IMG/VR virus record: IMGVR_UViG_3300017917_001194
Location: 22,397-86,396 of that record
Reading direction: 5' to 3' (one strand)
Length of the DNA stretch: 64,000 bases
From: a virus
The translations under genes and the position numbers were made by a program. The notes under the pieces were generated by a model. That model worked only from the letters and a program-made list of their open reading frames with translations, was not told where the DNA came from and ran no database searches. The first letter of the stretch is position 1. Each line of letters opens with the position of its first letter. Shown here piece by piece: positions 7,036 through 39,479 of the stretch.

Positions 7036-8628
7036 ATGTTTGACAATTCCAAACCAAACGTTATTATTCTCGCAGATTTAACCGATGTGGTCACAATGAG
7101 TAAAACACTCGGGCCATATAAGGTAGCTAATGAGTTGCGTCGTGCTGGGTTTGAATGTATGGTATTACAACATATTCATACCATGGATTTTGAAGAGTTA
7201 AAATATCTGTTAAGCAATCTAATATCAGATCAAACTTTATTTGTTGGGATCAACACAATGTTCTATCAGGACATTGATGGGGTCGTTAAATCGCCAACCG
7301 AACCTATGTATTATAAAGAAGCACATCCTGGTGCTATGTTACCACACGGGTACAAATATAATCAAGAATTTAAAAATTTTGTTAAACTGTGCAACCCTAA
7401 TACAAAAATAGTATTAGGAGGATCCAAGTCAGTTGATGCTAGTTGGAATAAAGATTATGATTATCTAGTATTTGGGTATGCTGATGTATCAATTGTTGAA
7501 CTTGCTAGATATCTTCAAAATCCTCAAGGAAAACTTAATAAATCTTATCGAAGCATTCATGGCCCTGTTGTTTTAGACGATAGTCGTGCTGAAACATATG
7601 ATTTTAATAATACCCCTATGGGGTATGTTGACCACGATATTATACTTCCAGGAGAAACATTAAACATTGAGATAGCCCGAGGTTGTATATTTAGATGTAC
7701 TTTTTGTAGTTATCCGTTGAATGGTAAGAAGAAGTTGGATTTTATTAAACACGAAGAAATACTATATAATGAATTTATAGATAACTACCGACAATGGGGA
7801 ACAACACGTTATATTTTTTCTGATGACACGTTTAATGACAGCGCAGAAAAAATTGAGATGATTTGGCGTATTAGCAGACGTTTACCATTTGATCTTGAGT
7901 TTTGGGCATTTGTTCGACTAGACTTGTTATCCGCACATATTGACTTAACAGACAAACTTTTTGAAAGTGGGCTTCGCGGATGCTTTTTTGGAATTGAAAC
8001 CATGAATGAAAAATCGGCCCGCTCTATAGGTAAAGGTGGTAGTCGCGAAAAACAAATTGATACCTTAAAATACATTAAGGATAAATGGGGCGATAAAGTT
8101 ATATTATCAGCCGGATTTATACTTGGACTACCATATGAAGATCTTAACAGTATGAATTTAACAATTAATACGTTAGTAAGTAGACAAATACCGCTAGACC
8201 ATTGGAGTTTTTTTCCGTTAGTTATCCGGGGTGATATAACACAGCACAGTAGCAATTATCACAGTGAACTAGATAAAAATTATACAAAATACGGGTATCG
8301 TAAAATTGGAGTTGACGGAATTTTTCTTGATTGGGAAAATGATTATACAAATTATAAAGAAATACTCCAATTATCTAAATGGGCCAATGAAATCTCAACA
8401 GAACGCGGCATTCGTACAATAGATTCATACCAAGCATTTAGTATTGCCGGTTTGGGTTTTGATTTAGATTTTACAAGAATCAGATCTAATAATGAAATTG
8501 ATTGGCATAAAATTTTCTTAACCAAGCAACAACGTGCTTTAGAGTATAAAAATAAAATATACTCTATTCAAAATATCAAACCTTATTATAGCAAATCTAA
8601 GTTCAGTTGGACTTGGTCTGGAGTGTAA
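7036..8628 (+). CDS. B12-binding-type radical SAM protein (530 aa)
   Basis: The radical SAM cluster motif C-x3-C-x2-C is in ARGCIFRCTFCSYPLNG (about residues 216-232). The preceding 200 residues have the layout of the Rossmann-like N-terminal domain of cobalamin-binding radical SAM proteins (FVGINTMFYQ, IVLGGSKSVDASWNKDYDYL, VFGYADVSI), though the canonical cobalamin histidine motif is not obvious. Such enzymes methylate or rearrange unactivated carbons. It is one of the few plus-strand genes and converges on the epimerase gene with a 26-nt tail-to-tail overlap. No Shine-Dalgarno is apparent. Substrate unknown. Confidence 0.8.
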   Translation: MFDNSKPNVIILADLTDVVTMSKTLGPYKVANELRRAGFECMVLQHIHTMDFEELKYLLSNLISDQTLFVGINTMFYQDIDGVVKSPTEPMYYKEAHPGAMLPHGYKYNQEFKNFVKLCNPNTKIVLGGSKSVDASWNKDYDYLVFGYADVSIVELARYLQNPQGKLNKSYRSIHGPVVLDDSRAETYDFNNTPMGYVDHDIILPGETLNIEIARGCIFRCTFCSYPLNGKKKLDFIKHEEILYNEFIDNYRQWGTTRYIFSDDTFNDSAEKIEMIWRISRRLPFDLEFWAFVRLDLLSAHIDLTDKLFESGLRGCFFGIETMNEKSARSIGKGGSREKQIDTLKYIKDKWGDKVILSAGFILGLPYEDLNSMNLTINTLVSRQIPLDHWSFFPLVIRGDITQHSSNYHSELDKNYTKYGYRKIGVDGIFLDWENDYTNYKEILQLSKWANEISTERGIRTIDSYQAFSIAGLGFDLDFTRIRSNNEIDWHKIFLTKQQRALEYKNKIYSIQNIKPYYSKSKFSWTWSGV

Positions 8629-13232: not shown

Positions 13233-13321
13233 TGGCGGAGAGTATAGGATTCGAACCTATGCACCGTTATACACAGTGACGGATTAGCAATCCGTTGCAT
13301 TAACCACTCTGCCAACTCTCC
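13233..13321 (-). tRNA. tRNA-Ser (GCT)
   Basis: Full cloverleaf with a long variable arm; anticodon stem ACGGA/TCCGT and loop TTGCTAA. CCA is encoded. Reads AGC/AGU. Confidence 0.93.
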
Positions 13322-13326
13322 TAATT

Positions 13327-13402
13327 TGGTGCTGGAGAAAGGAATCGAACCCTCGACATCCGCATTACAAGTGCGGCGCTCTACCGTCTGAGCTACTCCA
13401 GC
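13327..13402 (-). tRNA. tRNA-Thr (TGT)
   Basis: Standard 76-nt cloverleaf; anticodon loop CTTGTAA between CCGCA and TGCGG; CCA encoded. Only 5 bases from tRNA-Ser(GCT). Confidence 0.95.
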
Positions 13403-13403
13403 T

Positions 13404-13841
13404 TTAAAAACTTTTACCTTCGAGATATCTTTGCTTTCTAAAATGTCTTCCATTGCCTCTATTCTTGCCTTTATATGTTTCTGTTTGGCTATGACAATTT
13501 GGACAAATCATTGCTAAGTTATCTTCAGTTTGATTTTGGCTATTACCATCAACGTGTTCCACCTCAAGTGTCAGTGGCTTACCGTTCCATTCTATTGTGC
13601 CGCATATAGCACAACAGTGATTCTGTTTTTCTAACAGATATCTTTTAATATGAACGCTTACACCGTTTGGTCCTGCGCCTACTCTTAATCCTTCTTTCCA
13701 TTCCTTAACGTATCTTTTATATTGAGCAGTTTGTTGGCATTTTATCGAACAGTAAATATTTTTCTTACCAGGATGATAATTTGCTTCTGTACCACAATCA
13801 ATACACAAATATGTTTTAGGGTTAATTCTCTTTTTTGCCAT
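13404..13841 (-). CDS. HNH homing-type endonuclease (145 aa)
   Basis: An N-terminal zinc finger (CIDCGTEANYHPGKKNIYCS with a later C) is followed by an HNH nuclease: CCAICGTIEW, LEVEHVDGNSQNQTEDNLAM, ICPNCHSQTETYKGKNRG. It is closely similar in plan to the endonuclease at 16384-16773. It lies between tRNA genes and carries its own late-promoter-like box (CATAAATA at 13862-13869), typical for free-standing homing genes that invade intergenic sites. Confidence 0.88.
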   Translation of the reverse strand: MAKKRINPKTYLCIDCGTEANYHPGKKNIYCSIKCQQTAQYKRYVKEWKEGLRVGAGPNGVSVHIKRYLLEKQNHCCAICGTIEWNGKPLTLEVEHVDGNSQNQTEDNLAMICPNCHSQTETYKGKNRGNGRHFRKQRYLEGKSF

Positions 13842-13861
13842 GGTATAGCACTCCTTACATT

Positions 13862-13869
13862 TATTTATG
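13862..13869 (-). promoter_or_regulatory. T4-late-like promoter box (CATAAATA)
   Basis: It sits about 20 bases upstream of the HNH gene starting at 13841, followed by an AGGAG ribosome site. It matches the T4 late consensus TATAAATA at seven of eight positions. Confidence 0.6.
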
Positions 13870-13884
13870 CTATACCAATGAATT

Positions 13885-14073
13885 TTACTCTGCGGCTTCT
13901 ACCACAGGAGGCGTGTAGCCTAATTTTTGAATACGGCGTTGAATTTTAGCCACAATTTTTTTCTTACTTGCACGTTCTAACAGTTTAACCAACTGTGGTC
14001 CATTGAGACTGACAATCTTTACTTCACCGGATTTGGTGTAACCTGGCTTCTTACGATTTAATTTCTTTGACAT
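13885..14073 (-). CDS. Small basic protein (62 aa)
   Basis: It starts MSKKLNRKKPGYTKSGEVKI after a GGAG ribosome site; the longer upstream reading enters tRNA-Leu and is rejected. Very basic, with a helical half (ERASKKKIVAKIQRRIQKLG) and an acidic tip (EAAE). It resembles a small nucleic-acid binding protein, but no family is recognised. It is embedded in the tRNA array. Confidence 0.65.
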   Translation of the reverse strand: MSKKLNRKKPGYTKSGEVKIVSLNGPQLVKLLERASKKKIVAKIQRRIQKLGYTPPVVEAAE

Positions 14074-14124
14074 TATTGACTCCTTTGTTCTACTTATTTT
14101 AGTTGTTGTTGCCGATAAAAGTTT

Positions 14125-14209
14125 TGGTACGAGGGGCGGGATTCGAACCCGCAAGGCTATTCGCCGCTGGATTTTAAATCCAGTGTGTAGACCGTTCCAC
14201 CACCCTCGC
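14125..14209 (-). tRNA. tRNA-Leu (TAA)
   Basis: Long variable arm; anticodon loop TTTAAAA between CTGGA and TCCAG. CCA encoded. First acceptor pair is G-U. Confidence 0.93.
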
Positions 14210-14215
14210 AAAATC

Positions 14216-14494
14216 TTATATAGCGTCTGACAAGTTGGCCCAGGTAATATCCTTGGGATCAACGATGGCTACATTGTATTCGTACTTACGCAATAACTTC
14301 TGAGGTGGTACGGCACGACGTGGCATACCATTAACCTTGCCTGCTGTTGAATCAATTGGTTGTACCCAAACAAAAGTCTTGGAAAACTTAACCACACGTG
14401 CAATCACAATACGGTTATTAGCCACAGTGAATACGTGTTGCCCGATTTCTAATGGTTTGCCTAGTAGATCCTTAACAACATAATCGTTAATCAT
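14216..14494 (-). CDS. Conserved-looking hypothetical protein (92 aa)
   Basis: The start at 14494 (MINDYVVKDLLGKPLEIGQH) follows a GGAG site; the longer frame runs into tRNA-Gly. The product is beta-rich (HVFTVANNRIVIARVVKFSK, TFVWVQPIDSTAGK), suggesting a small barrel. It lies between tRNA-Gly(TCC) and tRNA-Leu(TAA) and is probably transcribed with them. Function unknown. Confidence 0.7.
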   Translation of the reverse strand: MINDYVVKDLLGKPLEIGQHVFTVANNRIVIARVVKFSKTFVWVQPIDSTAGKVNGMPRRAVPPQKLLRKYEYNVAIVDPKDITWANLSDAI

Positions 14495-14511
14495 ACTAAC
14501 TCCTATATAGT

Positions 14512-14585
14512 TGGAGCAGGGTAAGGGAATCGAACCCTCCGCTCTAGCTTGGAAGGCTAGGGTATTACCACTATACGAACCCTGC
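14512..14585 (-). tRNA. tRNA-Gly (TCC)
   Basis: Standard cloverleaf, 74 nt with CCA; anticodon loop CTTCCAA between CTAGC and GCTAG. Confidence 0.95.
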
Positions 14586-14594
14586 ATTTATAAT

Positions 14595-14623
14595 AATATA
14601 ACACAATCTACTATACTTGTCAA
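14595..14623 (-). promoter_or_regulatory. Sigma70-like promoter inside the tRNA array
   Basis: Minus strand TTGACA, 17 bases, TATATT, placed just upstream of tRNA-Gly(TCC). It should drive the left part of the array by host RNA polymerase. Confidence 0.7.
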
Positions 14624-14628
14624 TTAGG

Positions 14629-14713
14629 TGGTGCCCCAGGTGAGACTCGAACTCACACGCCTTTTGGGCAACGGCTTCTAAGACCGTCATGGCTACCATT
14701 ACATCACCGGGGC
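14629..14713 (-). tRNA. tRNA-Leu (TAG)
   Basis: Long variable arm (TGCCCAAAAGGCG); anticodon loop CTTAGAA between ACGGT and GCCGT; CCA encoded. Reads CUN codons. Confidence 0.93.
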
Positions 14714-14718
14714 ATATT

Positions 14719-14809
14719 TGGAGGAAGAGGTGGGATTCGAACCCACGGATCGCTCATCACGATCGCTAGTTTTCAAGACTAGAGCCATCAACCACTCGAC
14801 CACTCTTCC
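14719..14809 (-). tRNA. tRNA-Ser (TGA)
   Basis: Class II tRNA with a long variable arm; loop CTTGAAA between CTAGT and ACTAG; CCA encoded. Confidence 0.94.
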
Positions 14810-14810
14810 A

Positions 14811-14885
14811 TGGTAGTAGTGGTAAGATTCGAACTTACACCGGACCGCGTATGAAGCGGGCGCACTACCGTTATGCTACACTACC
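14811..14885 (-). tRNA. tRNA-Met-type (CAT)
   Basis: Anticodon loop TTCATAC on a CCGC/GCGG stem; CCA encoded. No three-G/three-C initiator stem, so elongator Met or a lysidine-type Ile tRNA. Confidence 0.88.
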
Positions 14886-14892
14886 ATAAATA
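14885..14892 (+). promoter_or_regulatory. Late-type box (CATAAATA) directly before a start codon
   Basis: The box ends 5 bases before the ATG at 14898, giving ATAAATATTACTATGA. Transcription from a T4-type late promoter would begin at about the ATG itself, predicting a leaderless mRNA. The same layout precedes 18360. Confidence 0.5.
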
Positions 14893-14897
14893 TTACT

Positions 14898-15404
14898 ATG
14901 AGAATAAAAGAGATTTTAACTGAAGCACATCACAGCATCATACTAACCATGCCAATTGGACCATGGAAAGTGCAAATCGATTCTCATGCGTATGCTACAT
15001 TACCTGCTCGTAATATTCCGTTAGAAAACTTTACCAATATGATAAGTTATATGTGTTATCTACCGGATGTTCTTCCGACAATTCCTGTTGGGCGCGGTGC
15101 ATATTTTCAAGACACAAATACTGCTATTTCAATATATGTAACACGTGTAGCTGACAATGTCGTTAGAGTAGAAACAGTGTTGGACCGCACAATGAAGCCA
15201 AAGCAACCTTTATTCCGCAGACCAGTGCCTGCACCGGACATGAAAAATCTTAAGCCTGTTGACTACAGCGCAATAAAGGCTGATGTACAAGCCCGCGGTA
15301 GAGATGCAGTTAGTCAAGACTTGGAAAAAACTCTACAACCTATCACACCCGTTAACCGAGCTGAGCGAAGAAAATTCGCCAAAGTAATGCGTCGTTTAAA
15401 ATAA
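14898..15404 (+). CDS. Putative small virion-type protein (168 aa)
   Basis: One of the few plus-strand genes. The N-terminus MRIKEILTEAHHSIILTMPI has the short [MR]-x-[IA]-K/S-E-I/F start also seen in the likely virion protein at 63116-63313 (MRASEFVVETA). The middle is beta-rich (TAISIYVTRVADNVVRVETV) and the C-terminus is basic (NRAERRKFAKVMRRLK). It is probably expressed late because of the box directly upstream. No family recognised, and it stands alone between tRNA genes. Confidence 0.65.
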   Translation: MRIKEILTEAHHSIILTMPIGPWKVQIDSHAYATLPARNIPLENFTNMISYMCYLPDVLPTIPVGRGAYFQDTNTAISIYVTRVADNVVRVETVLDRTMKPKQPLFRRPVPAPDMKNLKPVDYSAIKADVQARGRDAVSQDLEKTLQPITPVNRAERRKFAKVMRRLK

Positions 15405-15440
15405 TCTACCATATAAAAATACTCTTGTGTAAAAATGTTT

Positions 15441-15620
15441 TTATATGGTGGGACTGCTCGGATTCGAACCGAGACTCTTACCGGTTAAAAGCCGGATGTT
15501 TTGGCCAGTTAAACTACAATCCCTCATTTTCTCTTTACGTCGTAGAGCTTTGTTGCTCTTGCGGTGCGAGCCCGCCTTCCGTTTATTTGCTAGTACAGCA
15601 AATGGATTTCTTGGTTTCAT
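15441..15620 (-). CDS. Small basic protein reading through tRNA-Lys (59 aa)
   Basis: It begins MKPRNPFAVLANKRKAGSHR after an AGGAG ribosome site and continues KSNKALRRKEKM, a sequence with the look of the short basic proteins found in many phages (MKPRNP..A...KAG.HRKS.KALRR). The frame then continues on the same strand through the whole tRNA-Lys gene and stops 3 bases beyond it. The functional part is probably the first 33 residues, the tRNA-encoded tail being accidental. Confidence 0.6.
   Translation of the reverse strand: MKPRNPFAVLANKRKAGSHRKSNKALRRKEKMRDCSLTGQNIRLLTGKSLGSNPSSPTI
15446..15523 (-). tRNA. tRNA-Lys (TTT)
   Basis: Loop CTTTTAA on a CCGG/CCGG stem; T-arm CTCGG/CCGAG; CCA encoded. 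Wholly inside the reading frame of the 59-residue gene. Confidence 0.92.
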
Positions 15621-15642
15621 TTTATTCTCCTTTGTTAAAAAT

Positions 15643-15717
15643 TGGCCCGCCGTGCAGGAATCGAACCCACATTCTAGAGGTAGAAGCTCTATGTCCTATC
15701 CATTGAACGAACGGCAG
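15643..15717 (-). tRNA. tRNA-Arg (TCT)
   Basis: Loop CTTCTAC between TAGAG and CTCTA. The acceptor CTGCCGT pairs with ACGGCGG; discriminator G, CCA encoded. Reads AGA/AGG. Confidence 0.88.
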
Positions 15718-15722
15718 TTATT

Positions 15723-15817
15723 TGGTAGCAGATCTAGGATTTGAACCTAGCCGTTCCGGCCCATCTAGCCAGTCTCCAGAGTTTATAAGTCTCCGCCGCA
15801 CTCCAGTGCTATCTGCC
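15723..15817 (-). tRNA. Unusual class II-like tRNA, anticodon loop CTTATAA (TAT, Ile?)
   Basis: A 95-nt tRNA with a standard T-arm (CTAGG/CCTAG), an encoded CCA and an acceptor of six pairs plus G-U. The 27-base variable region folds as CTGGC/GCCGG. The loop CTTATAA gives anticodon TAT, but its closing pair is A-A, so the loop may open to nine bases. A long variable arm is normal for Leu, Ser or Tyr, not Ile. The D-loop is very short. Identity is uncertain. Confidence 0.6.
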
Positions 15818-15818
15818 T

Positions 15819-15894
15819 TGGGGTGCTGTATGGGACTCGAACCCATATTAACGGAATCACAATCCGTGGTGTTAACCTTTACACTAACTGCACC
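15819..15894 (-). tRNA. tRNA-His (GTG)
   Basis: Loop TTGTGAT between ACGGA and TCCGT; extra 5' G opposite C73 typical of tRNA-His; CCA encoded. One A-A mismatch in the acceptor. Confidence 0.92.
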
Positions 15895-15895
15895 A

Positions 15896-16369
15896 TTAAC
15901 CGTTGGCTATATTAAGGCTCTTGTACCTATCTGCCGCATAGCTAGCCGCGAATGCTCGGGGCTTGACCATTGGAATAACATTACAAGTACCACGGATATA
16001 ACCTATGGCTTGACCGCATACGTTAGAACTAGCGTAGTGTTCATCTGGGTTTAAGTCTAGGTGAACTTCAACATGGCGATTTTCTAGTACGTCTGCTAAT
16101 TTTAAATACAATTCACTTGCTTTATACACTTCGGTCATCAAGCGAGTGTTAGGACGATCCACGCGATCATAATCACGTTCACGTGAGACTTCGCCAAATA
16201 TCTTACAGCCATTGTTGCCGTTGATGTGTACAACTATAACCGCTGTATAGTCCGCATACCACGCATGATTTACTTGTAATCGTTCACTATCCACACCGAT
16301 ATAAATTTTAGTATCTGGTGTTTGTGCTTCAATGAACGCTTTTAATGCTGGTATGTCAAACTTTTTCAT
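15896..16369 (-). CDS. RNase H-like YkuK-family protein (157 aa)
   Basis: It matches the DUF458/YkuK family of RNase H-fold proteins: an N-terminal strand with the first acidic residue (KIYIGVDSERLQ), a strand pair (YTAVIVVHINGNNGCKIFGE) and the later acidic motif VEVHLDLNPDEHYASS. YkuK proteins have no settled function; nuclease activity is expected from the fold. It ends 2 bases before tRNA-His and is the only non-endonuclease enzyme inside the array. Confidence 0.8.
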   Translation of the reverse strand: MKKFDIPALKAFIEAQTPDTKIYIGVDSERLQVNHAWYADYTAVIVVHINGNNGCKIFGEVSRERDYDRVDRPNTRLMTEVYKASELYLKLADVLENRHVEVHLDLNPDEHYASSNVCGQAIGYIRGTCNVIPMVKPRAFAASYAADRYKSLNIANG

Positions 16370-16383
16370 TTAATCCTCACTGG

Positions 16384-16773
16384 TTAATTTGTTGGTAAAC
16401 CTCTTGCCGCTCTGCCTTTACCCCTGTTTTTTCCTTTATAGGTGTCAGTAGTAGCATGACAATTAGGACATAGCAATCTTAAATTTTCTAACTTATTATT
16501 ACCGGCATTGCCATCTATGTGATCTAAATCTAAAGGTATTTTGTTACCTAACCAAGTTTTACCCTTGCACATAGAACATTGATGTCCTTGTATTTTTTTC
16601 ACAAACTCTCTAATAGCCGGGCGTGACCAAACAGAATAGTCACCTTCTTCTAATTTTTTCAGATTATTTTGCTGTCGACCTTCAAAGTAACATTTACGAC
16701 AACAATACATATTAGAGTTACTCAATCGTTTAGGCATAAACGATGTGTTACAAGTTTTACAAACATAGTCCAT
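16384..16773 (-). CDS. HNH homing-type endonuclease (129 aa)
   Basis: A zinc finger (CKTCNTSFMPKR...YCCRKC) precedes the HNH domain: QCSMCKGKTW, LDLDHIDGNAGNNKLENLRL, LCPNCHATTDTYKGKNRGKG. It shares the C-terminal TYKGKNRG-G-R block with the protein at 13404-13841, so the two come from one lineage. It sits next to the YkuK gene and tRNA-Val. A late-type box (ACTAAATA) lies about 20 bases upstream. Confidence 0.88.
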   Translation of the reverse strand: MDYVCKTCNTSFMPKRLSNSNMYCCRKCYFEGRQQNNLKKLEEGDYSVWSRPAIREFVKKIQGHQCSMCKGKTWLGNKIPLDLDHIDGNAGNNKLENLRLLCPNCHATTDTYKGKNRGKGRAARGLPTN

Positions 16774-16793
16774 AACATTATTCTCCTATATCG

Positions 16794-16801
16794 TATTTAG
16801 T
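16794..16801 (-). promoter_or_regulatory. Weak late-like box (ACTAAATA)
   Basis: Upstream of the HNH gene at 16773, followed by a GGAG ribosome site. Six of eight matches to TATAAATA. Confidence 0.4.
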
Positions 16802-16816
16802 ATAATGTCATTATTT

Positions 16817-16890
16817 TGGTGCTTCGTGAAAGAATCGAACTTCCGTGTCCCACTTGTAAGGAGGGCATTCTGCCATTAAATTAACGAAGC
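16817..16890 (-). tRNA. tRNA-Val (TAC)
   Basis: Loop CTTACAA on a CCCTC/GTGGG stem with one T-T mismatch; CCA encoded. Confidence 0.9.
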
Positions 16891-16895
16891 ATGCG

Positions 16896-16972
16896 TGGCC
16901 GGTCTTGCAGGATTCGAACCCACCACCCCCTGGTTCGTAGCCAGGTACTCTATCCAAATGAGCTAAAGACCG
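16896..16972 (-). tRNA. tRNA-Arg (ACG)
   Basis: Loop CTACGAA between CCTGG and CCAGG; CCA encoded. An ACG anticodon needs host TadA editing to inosine to read all CGN codons. Confidence 0.94.
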
Positions 16973-17067
16973 AAGTATAACCCAGGGCTACCAGAGTAAA
17001 AATCACACGTCTAACAGCATGTCATTTACTGTAGATTACTGTAGGTAGTGGGCTGGGCCGTTATAAC

Positions 17068-17141
17068 TGGTAGCCAGAACAAGAATTGAACTTGTAATAA
17101 TCGCTTATCAAGCGACCGTTATACCATTTAACTATCCGGCT
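17068..17141 (-). tRNA. tRNA-Ile (GAT)
   Basis: Loop TTGATAA on a GTCGC/GCGAT stem; acceptor AGCCGGA/TCTGGCT; CCA encoded. Confidence 0.92.
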
Positions 17142-17142
17142 G

Positions 17143-17220
17143 TGGTCTCGGGTGAGGGATTCGAACTCTCGTTATTCCTGGTCCCAAACCAGGTGCCATA
17201 CCAGACTAGGCGAACCCGAG
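17143..17220 (-). tRNA. tRNA-Pro (TGG)
   Basis: Loop TTTGGGA between CCTGG and CCAGG; CCA encoded. One base from tRNA-Ile(GAT). Confidence 0.95.
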
Positions 17221-17221
17221 T

Positions 17222-17992
17222 TTAAAGTTTTGAATATTTCTCATTCCACACCCTGATTCTTTCTAATAATTCCTCATAGGTGATTGAATTTTTTTTATGT
17301 TTTGAACTATTTTTAGTATGTATAAGTAGTTCACAATTTGCCGGGTGCCTTATATGTTCCACTGGTAAGTTATTATCAAATCCATATCTACAACTAATCA
17401 TATGATCCCTACTTACTCCTCCGGTATTGTTACCTCTATTTGAGGCTTGATACCACCCGTGTGTTTTTATTAAATTAAAATTAAACTCATCTGGGTAATC
17501 TTTAAGATTAAATCTAAATTGACAATCGGCACGATAATTTTGCCATTCTGTTCTCTTTGCCCTTAACGGAATGTTTTTATAATCTATAGCACACTTTTTA
17601 CAACAGAACGTTTTAATTTTACTAAAAGTTTCAAATTGAGAATTACAGTGCTTACATTGTTTACTAATTAATTGTTTGCTCTTGGCCGGCCCTGTTTTAA
17701 ATTTTGAATAATCTTTAATAGCATTATTATAAATGGCCGCACAAGAGTTAGAACAAAATTTATTATGTCTTCTATTATACTCAAGTTTAGTACCACATTG
17801 AGCACATAGATTGGGATTTTTTATATATTTGTCAATAACATCTTCTTGGTGTCGTTTAGCTAAGATATCATATTTGCCGTTATATCCAGAGGAATATTTT
17901 GATAGATTAAGATGCGTTCTATCAACATGAGTAAATATTCCTTTTGCTGATTTAACTTCTTTACAGTATATACAACTACACAGTGTCGGCAT
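17222..17992 (-). CDS. Zinc-finger HNH-like endonuclease, homing type (256 aa)
   Basis: Several Cys2-Cys2 fingers (CSCIYCKEVKS, CAQCGTKLEY...CSNSC, CKHCNSQFET...CCKKC) are followed by a nuclease-like core GVSRDHMISCRYGFDNNLPV with HIRHPANCELLIH and SSKHKKNSIT. The same core occurs in the proteins at 18360 and 47352, showing a spreading family. Its stop lies one base before tRNA-Pro, so it inserted directly at the tRNA 5' end. A late-type box lies upstream. Confidence 0.82.
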   Translation of the reverse strand: MPTLCSCIYCKEVKSAKGIFTHVDRTHLNLSKYSSGYNGKYDILAKRHQEDVIDKYIKNPNLCAQCGTKLEYNRRHNKFCSNSCAAIYNNAIKDYSKFKTGPAKSKQLISKQCKHCNSQFETFSKIKTFCCKKCAIDYKNIPLRAKRTEWQNYRADCQFRFNLKDYPDEFNFNLIKTHGWYQASNRGNNTGGVSRDHMISCRYGFDNNLPVEHIRHPANCELLIHTKNSSKHKKNSITYEELLERIRVWNEKYSKL

Positions 17993-18021
17993 TTTTCATC
18001 TCCAAAAGTATTTTATACTAT

Positions 18022-18029
18022 TATTTATC
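18022..18029 (-). promoter_or_regulatory. Late-like box (GATAAATA)
   Basis: About 30 bases upstream of the endonuclease gene starting at 17992; a GGAG ribosome site follows. Confidence 0.5.
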
Positions 18030-18066
18030 ATTGGTGGATAATCTAATAGTTAAATTAAAACACTTT

Positions 18067-18139
18067 TGGAGATGGTCAGGATCGAACTGACTACCTTCTG
18101 CTTGCAAAGCAGATGCTCTCCCAAATGAGCTACACCCCC
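18067..18139 (-). tRNA. tRNA-Ala (TGC)
   Basis: Loop TTTGCAA between CTGC and GCAG; acceptor GGGGGTG/CATCTCC with the G3-U70 alanine pair. CCA is not encoded. Confidence 0.93.
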
Positions 18140-18143
18140 GTAA

Positions 18144-18219
18144 TGGAGCAGGATATCGGGTTCGAACCGATGACCTCGACGTTGGCAACGTGGCGCTCTA
18201 CCAGCTGAGCTAATCCTGC
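18144..18219 (-). tRNA. tRNA-Gly (GCC)
   Basis: Loop TTGCCAA; T-arm ATCGG/CCGAT; CCA encoded. One mismatch in the anticodon stem. Confidence 0.92.
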
Positions 18220-18225
18220 ATTGTT

Positions 18226-18301
18226 TGGCAGGGGATGAGTGGATCGAACACTCTCAATGGCGGGATCAAAACCCGCTGCCTTCCCATTTGGCGAATCCCC
18301 A
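18226..18301 (-). tRNA. tRNA-Gln (TTG)
   Basis: Loop TTTTGAT between GCGGG and CCCGC; CCA encoded; weak first acceptor pair as is usual for tRNA-Gln. Confidence 0.93.
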
Positions 18302-18311
18302 CTTGTACTAC

Positions 18312-18338
18312 TTGGCGGTTAAAAATAGTTCGAACCGC
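18312..18338 (-). repeat. Partial tRNA 3' end (remnant)
   Basis: The minus strand shows GCGGTTCGAACT, then TTTTTAACCG and GCCA: a T-loop and acceptor 3' strand with CCA but no 5' half. It lies between tRNA-Gln and the plus-strand endonuclease gene at 18360, whose arrival may have broken the original tRNA. Confidence 0.5.
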
Positions 18339-18346
18339 AAACTTGA

Positions 18347-18354
18347 GATAAATA
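18347..18354 (+). promoter_or_regulatory. Late-type box (GATAAATA) directly before a start codon
   Basis: GATAAATATTAGTATGA: the box ends 5 bases before the ATG at 18360, the same spacing and nearly the same bases as before 14898. It predicts a leaderless late transcript. Confidence 0.5.
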
Positions 18355-18359
18355 TTAGT

Positions 18360-19178
18360 ATGACAAAAAAATATTTTACTCAATCACAATGTAAACATTG
18401 TGGTAAAATTTACACTAAACAGAGAGATTCAAACAGATCTTTCTGCGACAATCAATGTCGTGTAAACTTCCGAATTGCTAACAAAAAAGTTATTATTAGG
18501 CCTTCTAAAACTTGCCCTAAATGTCACACTATTCACAATAAAATAGGAACATTCTGCTCTCGTAGTTGTGCCAATGGACACATTGTTACAGATAAGCATA
18601 AATCTAAATTAATGGACACTATTAATACTAAACTCACTATTAAGAACCAATTCGGTGAACACCCACGAAAATCTGCATTGCCAAAAAATATTGGCAAGAT
18701 TAGGCAATTTAATTATGTTGGCCCATATACTAAAATATACTTGTGCACCTGCAAATATTCTGGAAAGAAGTGGTATTCGCCTACAGTTAAAACCGTTCAT
18801 CCTGACTTGGGACGGACACGGAAAGAATACAGTTACTCTTGTCGTTTTCAGTTTGGAATTTCATCATTTCCAGATTGGTTTACTGATGCGTCTGAATTAA
18901 TAAACAAATACGGCTGGTACTCAACTCCCGGGTCGCGCAAAGGAATTAAAAACACAAACGGAATCTCGAGAGATCATTTATATTCGATCACCGACGGATG
19001 GACAAACAATGTTCCTCCCGAACTTATCCGGCATCCGGCGAATTGTGAGCTAGTCCCTCATCAGCAAAACCAATCTAAATATTATACTTCAAAAATAACG
19101 CTTGATGAATTATATCAACGAATACGCCAATTTAATTTGTTATATGGGCTACCCTGCACCGACTTGAACGGCGACTAA
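18360..19178 (+). CDS. Zinc-finger HNH-like endonuclease, homing type (272 aa)
   Basis: I chose the start at 18360 (MTKKYFTQSQCKHCGKIYTK); the upstream part of the open frame is tRNA-Gln in antisense. Fingers CKHCGKIYTKQRDSNRSFC and CPKCHTIHNKIGTFCSRSC precede the core NGISRDHLYSITDGWTNNVP and LIRHPANCELVPH, shared with 17222-17992. The last residues (LPCTDLNGD) are read from the antisense of tRNA-Trp, so the gene slots exactly between tRNAs on the opposite strand. Confidence 0.82.
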   Translation: MTKKYFTQSQCKHCGKIYTKQRDSNRSFCDNQCRVNFRIANKKVIIRPSKTCPKCHTIHNKIGTFCSRSCANGHIVTDKHKSKLMDTINTKLTIKNQFGEHPRKSALPKNIGKIRQFNYVGPYTKIYLCTCKYSGKKWYSPTVKTVHPDLGRTRKEYSYSCRFQFGISSFPDWFTDASELINKYGWYSTPGSRKGIKNTNGISRDHLYSITDGWTNNVPPELIRHPANCELVPHQQNQSKYYTSKITLDELYQRIRQFNLLYGLPCTDLNGD

Positions 19179-19219
19179 AAATTTTGGAGATTTCTGTGCT
19201 ACCTTTACACTACAGGGCA
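19149..19219 (-). tRNA. tRNA-Trp (CCA)
   Basis: Loop CTCCAAA on GAAAT/ATTTT; D-stem GTGT/GCAC; T-arm CGCCG/CGGTG. The 3' end reads GCCCA, so the CCA is not in the normal register. It overlaps the end of the plus-strand endonuclease gene. Confidence 0.8.
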
Positions 19220-19233
19220 ATAACTATTTAAAT

Positions 19234-19319
19234 TGGTGGAGTATCCAGGGATCGAACCGGGCGTGCCATAAGGCGGGGGATTTACAGTCCCCTGCATCAC
19301 CGTTGATGCTTCTACTCCA
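19234..19319 (-). tRNA. tRNA-Tyr (GTA)
   Basis: Loop CTGTAAA between GGGGA and TCCCC; long variable arm; CCA encoded. Confidence 0.94.
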
Positions 19320-19326
19320 AATTGTA

Positions 19327-19403
19327 TGGCATCCTGTAGGGGATTCGAACCCCTGAATGTCACCGTGAAAGGGTGATGACTTAGGCCGCTTGTCGAACAG
19401 GAT
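19327..19403 (-). tRNA. tRNA-Glu (TTC)
   Basis: Loop CTTTCAC between TCACC and GGTGA; T-arm AGGGG/CCCCT; discriminator G, CCA encoded. Confidence 0.94.
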
Positions 19404-19409
19404 AAAACC

Positions 19410-19484
19410 TGGTTGCGGGAGGAGGAATTGAACCTACCATCTGAGAGCTTATGAGACTCCCGTGCGACCACTACACTTTCCCGC
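19410..19484 (-). tRNA. tRNA-Met-type (CAT)
   Basis: Loop CTCATAA on GGAGT/GCTCT; CCA encoded. Second of three CAT tRNAs; one may be a lysidine-modified Ile tRNA for AUA. Confidence 0.88.
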
Positions 19485-19492
19485 GATTGTTC

Positions 19493-19576
19493 TGGCTCCG
19501 AAGGTAGGCTTCGAACCTACAGTGCTTTCGCGGCAGATTAACAGTCTGCTGAGTTTACCAGTTCCTCTACTTCGGA
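19493..19576 (-). tRNA. tRNA-Asn (GTT)
   Basis: Loop CTGTTAA between GCAGA and TCTGC. Unusually long variable region (about 12 bases), giving 84 nt; the body looks Tyr-like with one anticodon base changed. CCA encoded. Confidence 0.82.
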
Positions 19577-19583
19577 ATTGTCT

Positions 19584-19658
19584 TGGCGGTCTCAAGGGGT
19601 AACGATCCCCTTCTTTATGCGTGACAGGCATATGTGCGTCCATGAACACTTTGAGACC
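19584..19658 (-). tRNA. tRNA-Asp (GTC)
   Basis: Acceptor GGTCTCA/TGAGACC; loop CTGTCAC between TATGC and GCATA; CCA encoded. The T-loop is ATCGTTA instead of TTCRANY, so automatic tools may miss it. Confidence 0.85.
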
Positions 19659-19660
19659 AA

Positions 19661-19738
19661 AATCTGGTGAGTAGTTTTGTTACTCCGGACTACTACTAAC
19701 CGGGTTTCACTAATAACTGGCTGAGCCAGAATTCGTGT
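19661..19738 (-). other. Structured spacer between tRNA-Asp and tRNA-Cys
   Basis: The minus strand holds three consecutive hairpins (CTGGC/GCCAG; CCGG/CCGG; GAGTA/TACTC) and ends with ACCA at its lower-coordinate end. It has no acceptor stem and no anticodon arm I can fold. It could be a degraded tRNA or a processing spacer. Confidence 0.3.
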
Positions 19739-19739
19739 T

Positions 19740-19817
19740 TGGAGCAACGGGTGTGATTCGAACACACGGCTTTAGGGATTTGCAGTCCCTTGCATTGGGC
19801 CACTCTGCCACCGTTGC
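19740..19817 (-). tRNA. tRNA-Cys (GCA)
   Basis: Loop CTGCAAA between GGGA and TCCC; T-arm GTGTG/CACAC; CCA encoded. First tRNA of the leftward array. Confidence 0.93.
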
Positions 19818-21169: not shown

Positions 21170-21203
21170 ACAAGAAAAAGGCCCAATTAAGGGCCTTTTG
21201 GTT
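21170..21203 (-). terminator. Intrinsic terminator of the tmRNA unit
   Basis: Minus strand AAAAGGCCC, TTAATT loop region, GGGCCTTTTTC. It lies about 35 bases after the end of the tag-coding hairpin. Confidence 0.85.
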
Positions 21204-21490
21204 GTTTCTGTTACGAGGTAAGTCCTACCCTAAGCAGTGATTAAACTGCTAAAGTTTGGCGTTGTGCTGTACGAGCAGAGAATTTAACGTTCTTACCTGA
21301 AACAGTTACTTCGCCTTTAGATGCGTTTGCATTTACATTTATTTGCTTGGATTACGTCCATCGCCTCTCGTGTTGTCTGCTACAATACTAATTCGCCCGT
21401 CGAGTCTAAATCAGGCCCCTCATAAACATTCTACTTAAAATGCTTATGGTGGACCTGGGGAGGCACTGCCCCTCCCGTCCGAACAACCTT
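21204..21490 (-). ncRNA. ssrA: Circularly permuted tmRNA (ssrA)
   Basis: The 3' (acceptor) part comes first: TTCGGAC, a T-arm-like stem GGGAGG/CCTCCC, then CAGGTCC and ACCA (CCA at 21449-21447). After a 28-base spacer comes the 5' part, GGGCCTGATTTAGACTCGAC (from 21418), which pairs GGGCCTG with CAGGTCC including a G3-U70 alanine pair. Next is a tag frame (about 21330-21241) ending RTAQRQTLAV and a stop inside a hairpin (TTAGCAGTTTAATCACTGC), as in known tmRNAs. The acceptor part starts somewhere between 21510 and 21480. It rescues stalled ribosomes and tags peptides. The T-loop (GGCAGTG) is atypical. Confidence 0.85.
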
Positions 21491-21515
21491 TCTCTTCACT
21501 TCATACAACAATTCT

Positions 21516-21719
21516 TTACTCTCTACCCCAATCAATATGTGTCCAAATTCTATCATAAATGTAGTACGAACAAGTCCATACTATGTTAATAATGATAGCA
21601 GGTAATATTGCTTGCGTAGTACTTTGTCCAGTGATCAACAACATTACATAGGTGCTTAGTATAACCCAGCATCTGTAGATTAAAGTTTTTACTAATGTTC
21701 GCTTTTTCGTATCTTTCAT
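21516..21719 (-). CDS. DUF2061-like membrane protein (67 aa)
   Basis: The start at 21719 (MKDTKKRTLVKTLIYRCWVI) gives an ATGA overlap with the upstream gene; a longer frame is rejected. Two hydrophobic helices (WVILSTYVMLLITG, AILPAIIINIVWTCSYYIYD) and the ending RIWTHIDWG match the small DUF2061 inner-membrane family, of unknown function. The tmRNA follows directly. Confidence 0.8.
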   Translation of the reverse strand: MKDTKKRTLVKTLIYRCWVILSTYVMLLITGQSTTQAILPAIIINIVWTCSYYIYDRIWTHIDWGRE

Positions 21720-21922
21720 AATTCTTTTACCACTCCACGATAGCATAAAGGTATATACCACCACGGTTGACGTCTGGGTTTTGTTAGAGTATATTCTAAT
21801 ACCTTGCCGTTAGGACTTACCCAGGTATTATGGAATCCTAACCAAGTGCGACTACGATGCCAGCGAATACTTCCGCCCCAACGAAATCGCATCCATAACG
21901 CAAAAACCAAACAATTACACAT
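21716..21922 (-). CDS. Trp/Arg-rich small protein (68 aa)
   Basis: It begins MCNCLVFALWMRFRWGGSIR. It is unusually rich in Trp and Arg (RWHRSRTWLGFHNTWVSPNG, RRQPWWYIPLCYRG). A first gene behind a strong sigma70-like promoter and coupled to the membrane protein gene. It could be membrane-associated. No family recognised. Confidence 0.65.
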   Translation of the reverse strand: MCNCLVFALWMRFRWGGSIRWHRSRTWLGFHNTWVSPNGKVLEYTLTKPRRQPWWYIPLCYRGVVKEL

Positions 21923-37466: not shown

Positions 37467-39479
37467 TTATTCAATTAGTTTTATAGTTCTACTAAATTTA
37501 CTATCAGCCAAACTAATTGCCTGATAAAAGTATTGTTCGTACTGTTTGAGTGGGGTTGCTTGGTGTTGATGCCATGTAATGTCTTGGTAAGTTTGGTTAA
37601 CAAAAATTGTTTGATCGTTAATTTGATATGTGTACGATCCTCGATTTAATTGCTTGATTTTGAAATAGGTGAGCCAATCATACTCTGTATCAAACTCTCG
37701 GCCAAGATTAGGGTTATATTCCGAATCCAATACTCCATTCCGTAAGTAAATACCAAGATCTGATATAATAGGATCGTTAAGCCTCTTCGCTAAGTCATTG
37801 CATAATTTACTATAAAATAATTGTGCGTTGGTTAATGCAACAAATGCGAAATACGTTCTGGGTGGTAAAAGTATCGGGAAATCAGGATGGTAGTCGATTC
37901 CGTGTTGAGTAAATGTAACATCGTGTACCCATTGATGAATGGTCTGGTATCCTAATGCAAATAACTTTTCTAACACATCTTCGTTAGATAATTTGGGTTT
38001 GACATAATTTTTATAGATAAAATCTTGAACAAACGATGGCTCCATATGATGTGTATCTTTAATATATCTACAAAGCATAGCATTAACACCAGTGTAATCA
38101 TTTGCAAATGCTAGACCGTTAACAAGATACATGTCCACCCATTCATCCTTGGTATAGCTATAAGTTTCCACAACGCTTTCAACTGTTGGATTGTTCCAAG
38201 TGTGTGAGTTAAAGATTGCTGGATGAATTTCAAATTCTTCCTTTACTAACCAAGACTCGGTTGACATCATCTTAGGAACCGTTTGAATCTTAAATTGTTC
38301 TCTCATCTCAGGACTAAACGCTGGAGTCTCGGGTAATAATATCCATGTGTTTGGTCTAGCCGCACTGAGATTATTATTAACCAGGATGTCAATTTGATTA
38401 AGAGTTTTTTGATAATTATCGCCTGGTAGTCCAGCAATAATTTCAACTTTAACCGGTAACTCTGGAAACTTTGATCGCAAATAGTTAACACTAGCAATTT
38501 GTTTTTCTATAGGTGGATCTATGCGTTCAACATTATTTTTAATTTCTTCATCTATTGCTTGAACTGAAATTTTGTGGTGATCTAGTAAACCTTGTTCGGC
38601 TAGAAGTTCTTTAATTTTAGTAGTTCTTGCCAGGTGATTTTTAGCATTCTCGGTAACAACAGTTTTTGGGTAACCATATTTTTTTGCAACATCAACAATA
38701 TGTTCGGTTATAGCAACATCAATTTCATAAATTCCAAAGTTAGCATCAAGGGTTGAAAACAATTTTACTTTGTTCGCACCGATCCATTCAATCTCATCAA
38801 GTACAATATCAAATGGTTTTTTAACTACTTTGGTGTATGTTCCGCCACCCCAATCACAATAGATACATTTATAAGGGCATCCCCGAGACGTTTCGATTGA
38901 TCCATACATAAATTGACCAGCGTATGGTAGAAGATATTTTTCTTGAGCCTTATAGATGTTATTGGGCCACTTGAAAGATTTTTTTTCGATTCCTAATTTA
39001 CTAAAGCATCGATTTTTATCTTTGTCGGCATAGTAGATGTATGGAATTTTTTCGTAATCAGTAATAGGAAAATAATCAAGTATTTCTTTGAATACTATTT
39101 CACCGTATGCATCACTTGGAACAACAATGTCCACCCAGGGCTTTTCTTTAAAAAAATTTTCATTGTATTTGATGTGGGGTTGTGGGCCACCGTAAACAAT
39201 TAAACAATTAGGATATTGATTTTTTACCTCTTCGGCTACTTCGTCAAAAAAAGATTCATTCCAGACGTACACACTAAAACCAAATATGTCCGGTGGCGCC
39301 TTTTGACATTCATTGAGAATCTCTTCTTTAGATCTATAATCAGCGATCCATGGGTCGGCCCACTGATATTCAGTATGTTTACTACTGTTTTCTTCGAAGT
39401 AAGTTTTAAGGCTACACCAGAGCAGAGGAAGAGTTAACTCGGCAAATGAGTGTTTATTTGCCACATACACATTTTTCAT
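37467..39479 (-). CDS. B12-binding-type radical SAM protein (670 aa)
   Basis: A cobalamin-type N-terminal domain (PDIFGFSVYVWNESFFDEVA, CLIVYGGPQPH) precedes the radical SAM core with cluster motif SRGCPYKCIYCDWGGGTYTK (about residue 200). KLFSTLDANFGIYEIDVAIT and GLPGDNYQKTLNQIDILVNN belong to the core. The C-terminal 250 residues are a large extra region. This is the architecture of the P-methyltransferase/B12 radical SAM group. Its substrate is unknown. Confidence 0.82.
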   Translation of the reverse strand: MKNVYVANKHSFAELTLPLLWCSLKTYFEENSSKHTEYQWADPWIADYRSKEEILNECQKAPPDIFGFSVYVWNESFFDEVAEEVKNQYPNCLIVYGGPQPHIKYNENFFKEKPWVDIVVPSDAYGEIVFKEILDYFPITDYEKIPYIYYADKDKNRCFSKLGIEKKSFKWPNNIYKAQEKYLLPYAGQFMYGSIETSRGCPYKCIYCDWGGGTYTKVVKKPFDIVLDEIEWIGANKVKLFSTLDANFGIYEIDVAITEHIVDVAKKYGYPKTVVTENAKNHLARTTKIKELLAEQGLLDHHKISVQAIDEEIKNNVERIDPPIEKQIASVNYLRSKFPELPVKVEIIAGLPGDNYQKTLNQIDILVNNNLSAARPNTWILLPETPAFSPEMREQFKIQTVPKMMSTESWLVKEEFEIHPAIFNSHTWNNPTVESVVETYSYTKDEWVDMYLVNGLAFANDYTGVNAMLCRYIKDTHHMEPSFVQDFIYKNYVKPKLSNEDVLEKLFALGYQTIHQWVHDVTFTQHGIDYHPDFPILLPPRTYFAFVALTNAQLFYSKLCNDLAKRLNDPIISDLGIYLRNGVLDSEYNPNLGREFDTEYDWLTYFKIKQLNRGSYTYQINDQTIFVNQTYQDITWHQHQATPLKQYEQYFYQAISLADSKFSRTIKLIE

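Follow-up and report, generated by a model that had tools for sequence, protein, structure and literature searches.

Mycobacteriophages and Bacillus phage G have tmRNAs of the one-piece kind, which are not known to be permuted. Two-piece tmRNAs also occur in phages: a published survey gives 53 such structures, called by ARAGORN in 18,146 phage genomes (PMC9004378), and one tmRNA is listed for Sinorhizobium phage AP-J-162 (PMC11242549). The standard steps of trans-translation have been described (PMC3985003). Canonical SsrA tags commonly end in LAA and lead to ClpXP delivery, which is helped by SspB, and an AAV variant of the E. coli tag is degraded more slowly (PMC9382460).

We analysed a 64,000 nt stretch (the window) of an IMG/VR record that represents an 86-kb virus fragment. 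The Rfam model for permuted tmRNA, RF04321, matches positions 21298-21510 on the minus strand with 98.4 bits (gathering cut-off 47, E value 6.6e-18 for the 64-kb window). The alpha_tmRNA model RF01849 passes marginally (53.7 versus a cut-off of 50), while the beta tmRNA model RF01850 stays below its cut-off (76.5 versus 84); the alignment of the beta model to the gene continues as far as the terminator. On the minus strand the tmRNA 3′ half lies upstream of the 5′ half, with seven acceptor pairs between them, and the tmRNA folds better than 100 of 100 shuffled sequences (z = −3.67). The parts of the gene are:

21198..21510, minus strand: circularly permuted tmRNA gene, extent of the precursor approximate (RF04321 match and beta-model alignment)
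21458..21476, minus strand: T-arm GGGAGG-GGCAGTG-CCTCCC with alpha-type loop and a 6-bp stem, usually 5 bp (sequence; comparison with 139 relatives)
21457-21451, minus strand: acceptor-stem 3′ strand CAGGTCC (sequence, RF04321 match)
21450-21447, minus strand: encoded ACCA, the 3′ end of the acceptor piece (sequence, RF04321 match)
21419..21446, minus strand: intervening segment between the halves, 28 nt, without ORF (sequence, fold)
21418-21412, minus strand: acceptor-stem 5′ strand GGGCCTG (G3-U70), which opens the coding piece (sequence, RF04321 match)
21399..21418, minus strand: 5′ strand and D-loop region ATTTAGACTCGAC, start of the coding piece (sequence)
21244..21330, minus strand: tag frame of 29 codons, ANASKGEVTVSGKNVKFSARTAQRQTLAV, with resume codon GCA after UAAAU (sequence, relatives, ARAGORN)
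21241..21243, minus strand: tag stop codon UAA (sequence)
21231..21252, minus strand: hairpin whose loop contains the stop codon (stem kept through compensatory variants in long-tag relatives)
21215..21230, minus strand: tail hairpin GGGTA-loop-TACCT, 3′ of the tag (stem kept through compensatory changes in relatives)
21175..21197, minus strand: terminator hairpin AAGGCCC-TTAATT-GGGCCTTTTT (sequence, fold)

The position of the stop codon in a hairpin loop resembles the arrangement in the one-piece tmRNA of E. coli. The first-pass annotation had proposed a permuted phage tmRNA, and had made this dependent on a model match above threshold and on acceptor pairing that is conserved in related phages. 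The proposal stands: the RF04321 score is well above its cut-off, all described elements are present on the minus strand, among them the G3-U70 acceptor pair, the stop-codon hairpin and the terminator, and the acceptor pairing is kept in relatives by compensatory changes. The start of the gene lies about 20 nt further upstream than the interval that had been given for it.

Among the relatives we found 19 distinct acceptor stems with compensatory changes at pairs 4-7; since the search pattern demanded GGG...TCC and at least 6 of 7 pairs, the constancy of G3-U70 in this set is built in. The stop hairpin and the tail hairpin covary as well, the latter with the compensatory variants GCGGA/TCCGT, GAGCA/TGCTT and GATCA/TGATT. 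All 27 large records tested, which had been recruited by tmRNA parts or by polymerase, contain tmRNA matches above cut-off, and permuted tmRNAs are common in the clade among IMG/VR relatives. The locus had been expected to be rare, which is not supported, considering this frequency and the permuted phage tmRNAs already published (PMC9004378). The supposedly unusual T-loop GGCAGTG is of the alpha_tmRNA type (consensus GGCgGUA) and is present in dozens of relatives. A permuted phage tmRNA and its T-loop are thus ordinary, and the novelty of the window tmRNA is its tag.

With 29 codons, a basic character and the C-terminus LAV, ANASKGEVTVSGKNVKFSARTAQRQTLAV departs from the canonical SsrA degron, which is short and ends in LAA. 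A long tag had been suggested as a possibility in the first-pass annotation, and both its frame and its length turned out to be conserved. A search from the tag start revealed two discrete classes, a 13-residue ANASNDEVFALAA-like class and a 29-residue class like that of the window. By profile search, 123 stretches were found to encode a relative of the long tag, and the 80 of these that were read have 28-30 residues with in-frame indels. The 43 distinct long tags from related IMG/VR contigs (a 44th entry was a mis-parsed short tag and was left out) are 28-30 residues long, end in LAV (26) or FAV (17) and have net charges of +2 to +5, compared to 19 canonical tags ending in LAA, LVA or IAA with charges of −2 to 0. 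Chosen against circularity, a search for the stop hairpin that is blind to codons 1-27 retrieved a long tag of 28-29 aa in 41 of 41 distinct sequences. A tail-only search recovered both tag classes, a search that used the acceptor part and ignored the tag recovered a further variant (L433), and ARAGORN independently calls the same frames and the same tag class in relatives. At the level of sequence comparison, the 29-codon frame is real.

The coding signal of the tag is modest, with dN/dS values of 0.43 (core) and 0.64 (codons 1-27). Synonymous variants, counted as a test for purifying selection on the tag peptide, were not significantly in excess (P 0.15). Our argument for the tag is consequently based on retention of frame and length and not on dN/dS. 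No homologues of the tag were found in PDB (chance matches only), Pfam or PHROGs, tblastn against 50,697 phage and 72,556 plasmid records gave no match, and the tag was not found elsewhere in the fetched loci. Other, unrelated long tags of 23-31 aa were seen in several loci (L426, L427, L432, L434, L435, L437, L454, L461, L473, L482), and some of these look as if a canonical tag had been extended at its N-terminus, such as ANADTFDFSAMSFTGNTVRGAANESRFVLAA from L435.

The phage encodes a family-B DNA polymerase (PolB), for which the nearest isolates are two jumbo phages, Sinorhizobium phage Phosso and Agrobacterium phage Atu_ph07, at about 50%; no close DNA relatives were found among isolated phages. 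IMG/VR contains many closer relatives, the best 80 kept being about 80-91% identical, and in the closer relatives a distance of about 25-45 kb consistently separates the tmRNA from the polymerase gene. In a PolB tree of 28 phages, the distribution of long and short tags needs at least five changes, and sister phages carry short acidic LAA tags. Phages whose polymerases have clearly diverged still share very similar tag DNA, but they differ in the T-arm, in the intervening segment and in the sequence upstream of the tag. This suggests, as judged from these sequence patterns, that tmRNA parts are exchanged by recombination. As phages with similar polymerases carry either tag type, the tag seems to behave as a cassette that can be exchanged.

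Several further features of these genomes were recorded. One 236-kb phage contig (G034, loci L317 and L338) has two permuted tmRNAs, one with a long LAV tag and one with the tag ANDESYALAA, and also a second, distant polymerase match. The window contains 24 tRNAs; 23 tRNA genes are clustered at 13233-19817 on the minus strand with small ORFs interspersed, and radical SAM proteins are encoded at 7036-8628 and 37467-39479. When the shared tail motif was used to look for the host in bacterial genomes, the single match lay inside a protein gene and was rejected as a chance match.

In many relatives the intervening segment between the tmRNA halves holds a protein gene, which starts about 10 nt after the CCA, has a ribosome-binding site and ends with a TGA stop exactly 1 nt before the coding piece (L461, L438, L462, L442, L469, L489, L497, L094, L130, L148, L149, L090, L170, L176, L101, L126, L102, L270 and others). 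Full-span ORFs with a ribosome-binding site were seen 12 times, compared to 0.4 expected from shuffled sequences (maximum 3 in 300 rounds), and one family of nested ORFs has a dN/dS of about 0.08-0.26. Many further cases came from a targeted scan. Among them are a thioredoxin (Pfam, 4e-21), whose gene is enclosed by a tmRNA scoring 136 bits, and a DUF2061 membrane protein (3.5e-20); the other products are small transmembrane-like peptides and proteins of 65-123 aa without assignment. No ORF is present in the 28-nt segment of the window itself. An ORF for a DUF2061-like membrane protein lies at 21516-21764 on the minus strand (20.2 bits; the Pfam cut-off is 23.1) and ends 6 nt before the tmRNA match, and a similar protein is nested in the tmRNA of L438 and L462. 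Our literature search did not find protein genes nested in permuted tmRNA reported, which is no proof of novelty.

Taken together, the gene most probably belongs to a huge T4-like freshwater phage and encodes a working tmRNA in two pieces, which would rescue host ribosomes and add a non-canonical tag. Since the parts are intact, we infer that the phage tmRNA follows the steps of trans-translation. The tRNA-processing enzymes of the host would split the transcript in two, and the pieces would pair and be charged with alanine. No SmpB was found in the record itself or in the 27 large relatives, records which may be fragments, and the phage presumably uses host SmpB. Together with EF-Tu of the host, SmpB would bring the tmRNA into stalled host ribosomes during infection, and the stalled chain would gain Ala plus 29 residues. 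As the most probable outcome, the ribosomes would be freed and host proteases would handle the tagged products differently, by weaker or adaptor-independent delivery to ClpXP or by another protease. Because the AAV variant is degraded more slowly, a LAV end on a basic tag likely changes handling, and altered proteolysis of the tagged proteins is plausible by extrapolation from E. coli tag variants (PMC9382460). The idea that a phage tmRNA could redirect host ribosome rescue, raised in the first-pass annotation, is likewise plausible. A more far-reaching view, which is possible and which we put forward tentatively, is that the tmRNA of huge freshwater phages serves as a reprogrammable rescue device with an exchangeable tag, in which the long basic (L/F)AV tag would free ribosomes while directing the products to another fate than the normal destruction by SspB and ClpXP.

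The long tag may instead be part of ordinary rescue and degradation, as a degron that fits the proteases of the hosts of these phages; it could have been taken over from a host tmRNA that carries this tag. This is a serious contender, though somewhat short of probable. The E. coli AAV variant is still degraded, only more slowly, the tag ending of Mollicutes differs and is read by Lon (PMC9382460), and tag diversity could follow host diversity. However, closely related phages switch between tag types, and no bacterial source was seen in a scan of bacterial genomes for the tail motif.

As a second alternative, the tag could act as a functional peptide and not as a mark for destruction: a small basic beta-hairpin on truncated proteins that binds the ribosome, a chaperone or a protease adaptor. 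AlphaFold predicts a central beta-hairpin (pLDDT about 81 there, 69 overall), and this hairpin, the reversed charge and the conserved core EVTVSGKNVKFSAR are in line with such a role. We nevertheless regard it as unlikely, as the peptide has no relative in Pfam, PHROGs or PDB, the dN/dS signal is weak and the structure model is small and shallow.

The copy in the window has one peculiarity. Its T-stem has six pairs, while five are the norm (which is not a curated defining feature), and a six-pair stem is absent from the 139 distinct relatives compared. ARAGORN does not call the window tmRNA, perhaps because of the six-pair T-stem, and the copy scores lower than many relatives. Considering the T-stem and the score, the window copy could be impaired. 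The extra pair and the missing ARAGORN call would also fit a decoy or decayed tmRNA that binds to SmpB or to stalled ribosomes but does not tag productively, similar to the RNA of mycobacteriophage DS6A, which has only the tRNA domain; an RNA of this kind inhibits tmRNA (PMC4131195). But the tag frame, the stop hairpin, the CCA and the identity pair are all intact, and the indels seen in relatives are in-frame and preserve frame and length, which makes a decoy improbable. Finally, a short true tag, with the long frame being a chance readthrough, is hardly credible: a 16-codon open stretch is by itself not improbable, but a frame of 28-30 codons is present in tens of distinct sequences with indels in threes only, ARAGORN agrees, and the stop-hairpin search (41/41 long tags) contradicts it.

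A working tmRNA with a non-canonical tag turns phage tmRNA into a testable question, namely why a phage should encode a ribosome-rescue RNA of its own whose tag is different. Should the tag alter the fate of proteins, these phages would be manipulating quality control in the host. Their natural tag library provides variants for studying recognition by proteases and the rules by which trans-translation resumes and stops.

How does this tmRNA compare to known systems? Like the window phage, mycobacteriophages and Bacillus phage G carry a tmRNA of their own. The DS6A RNA consists of a tRNA domain without tag (PMC4131195), whereas the window tmRNA has a tag. Melnitz and other marine and aquatic phages (PMC9004378) are tailed phages with a permuted tmRNA, as in the window. 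The focus there is on a glutamine riboswitch and on an origin from the host, and long tags or tag switching are not described in the accessible part; the window phage belongs to a different clade, one of huge phages. The related jumbo phage Phosso also has a permuted tmRNA, but its tag ANDNVSTKVALAA has the canonical LAA ending in contrast to the LAV of the window. In Phosso this tmRNA lies in an unannotated gap of the GenBank record (L425, PV764938.1, about 349596-350198), and its intervening segment comprises several hundred nt. Gene order, the G3-U70 acceptor stem, the alpha-type T-loop and the resume context are shared between the window tmRNA and the tmRNAs of RF04321 and RF01849. The window copy differs from these by its 6-bp T-stem, by a stop hairpin of the kind present in one-piece E. 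coli tmRNA and by its basic 29-codon LAV tag, the commonest known tag length being 10 aa (PMC11915505).
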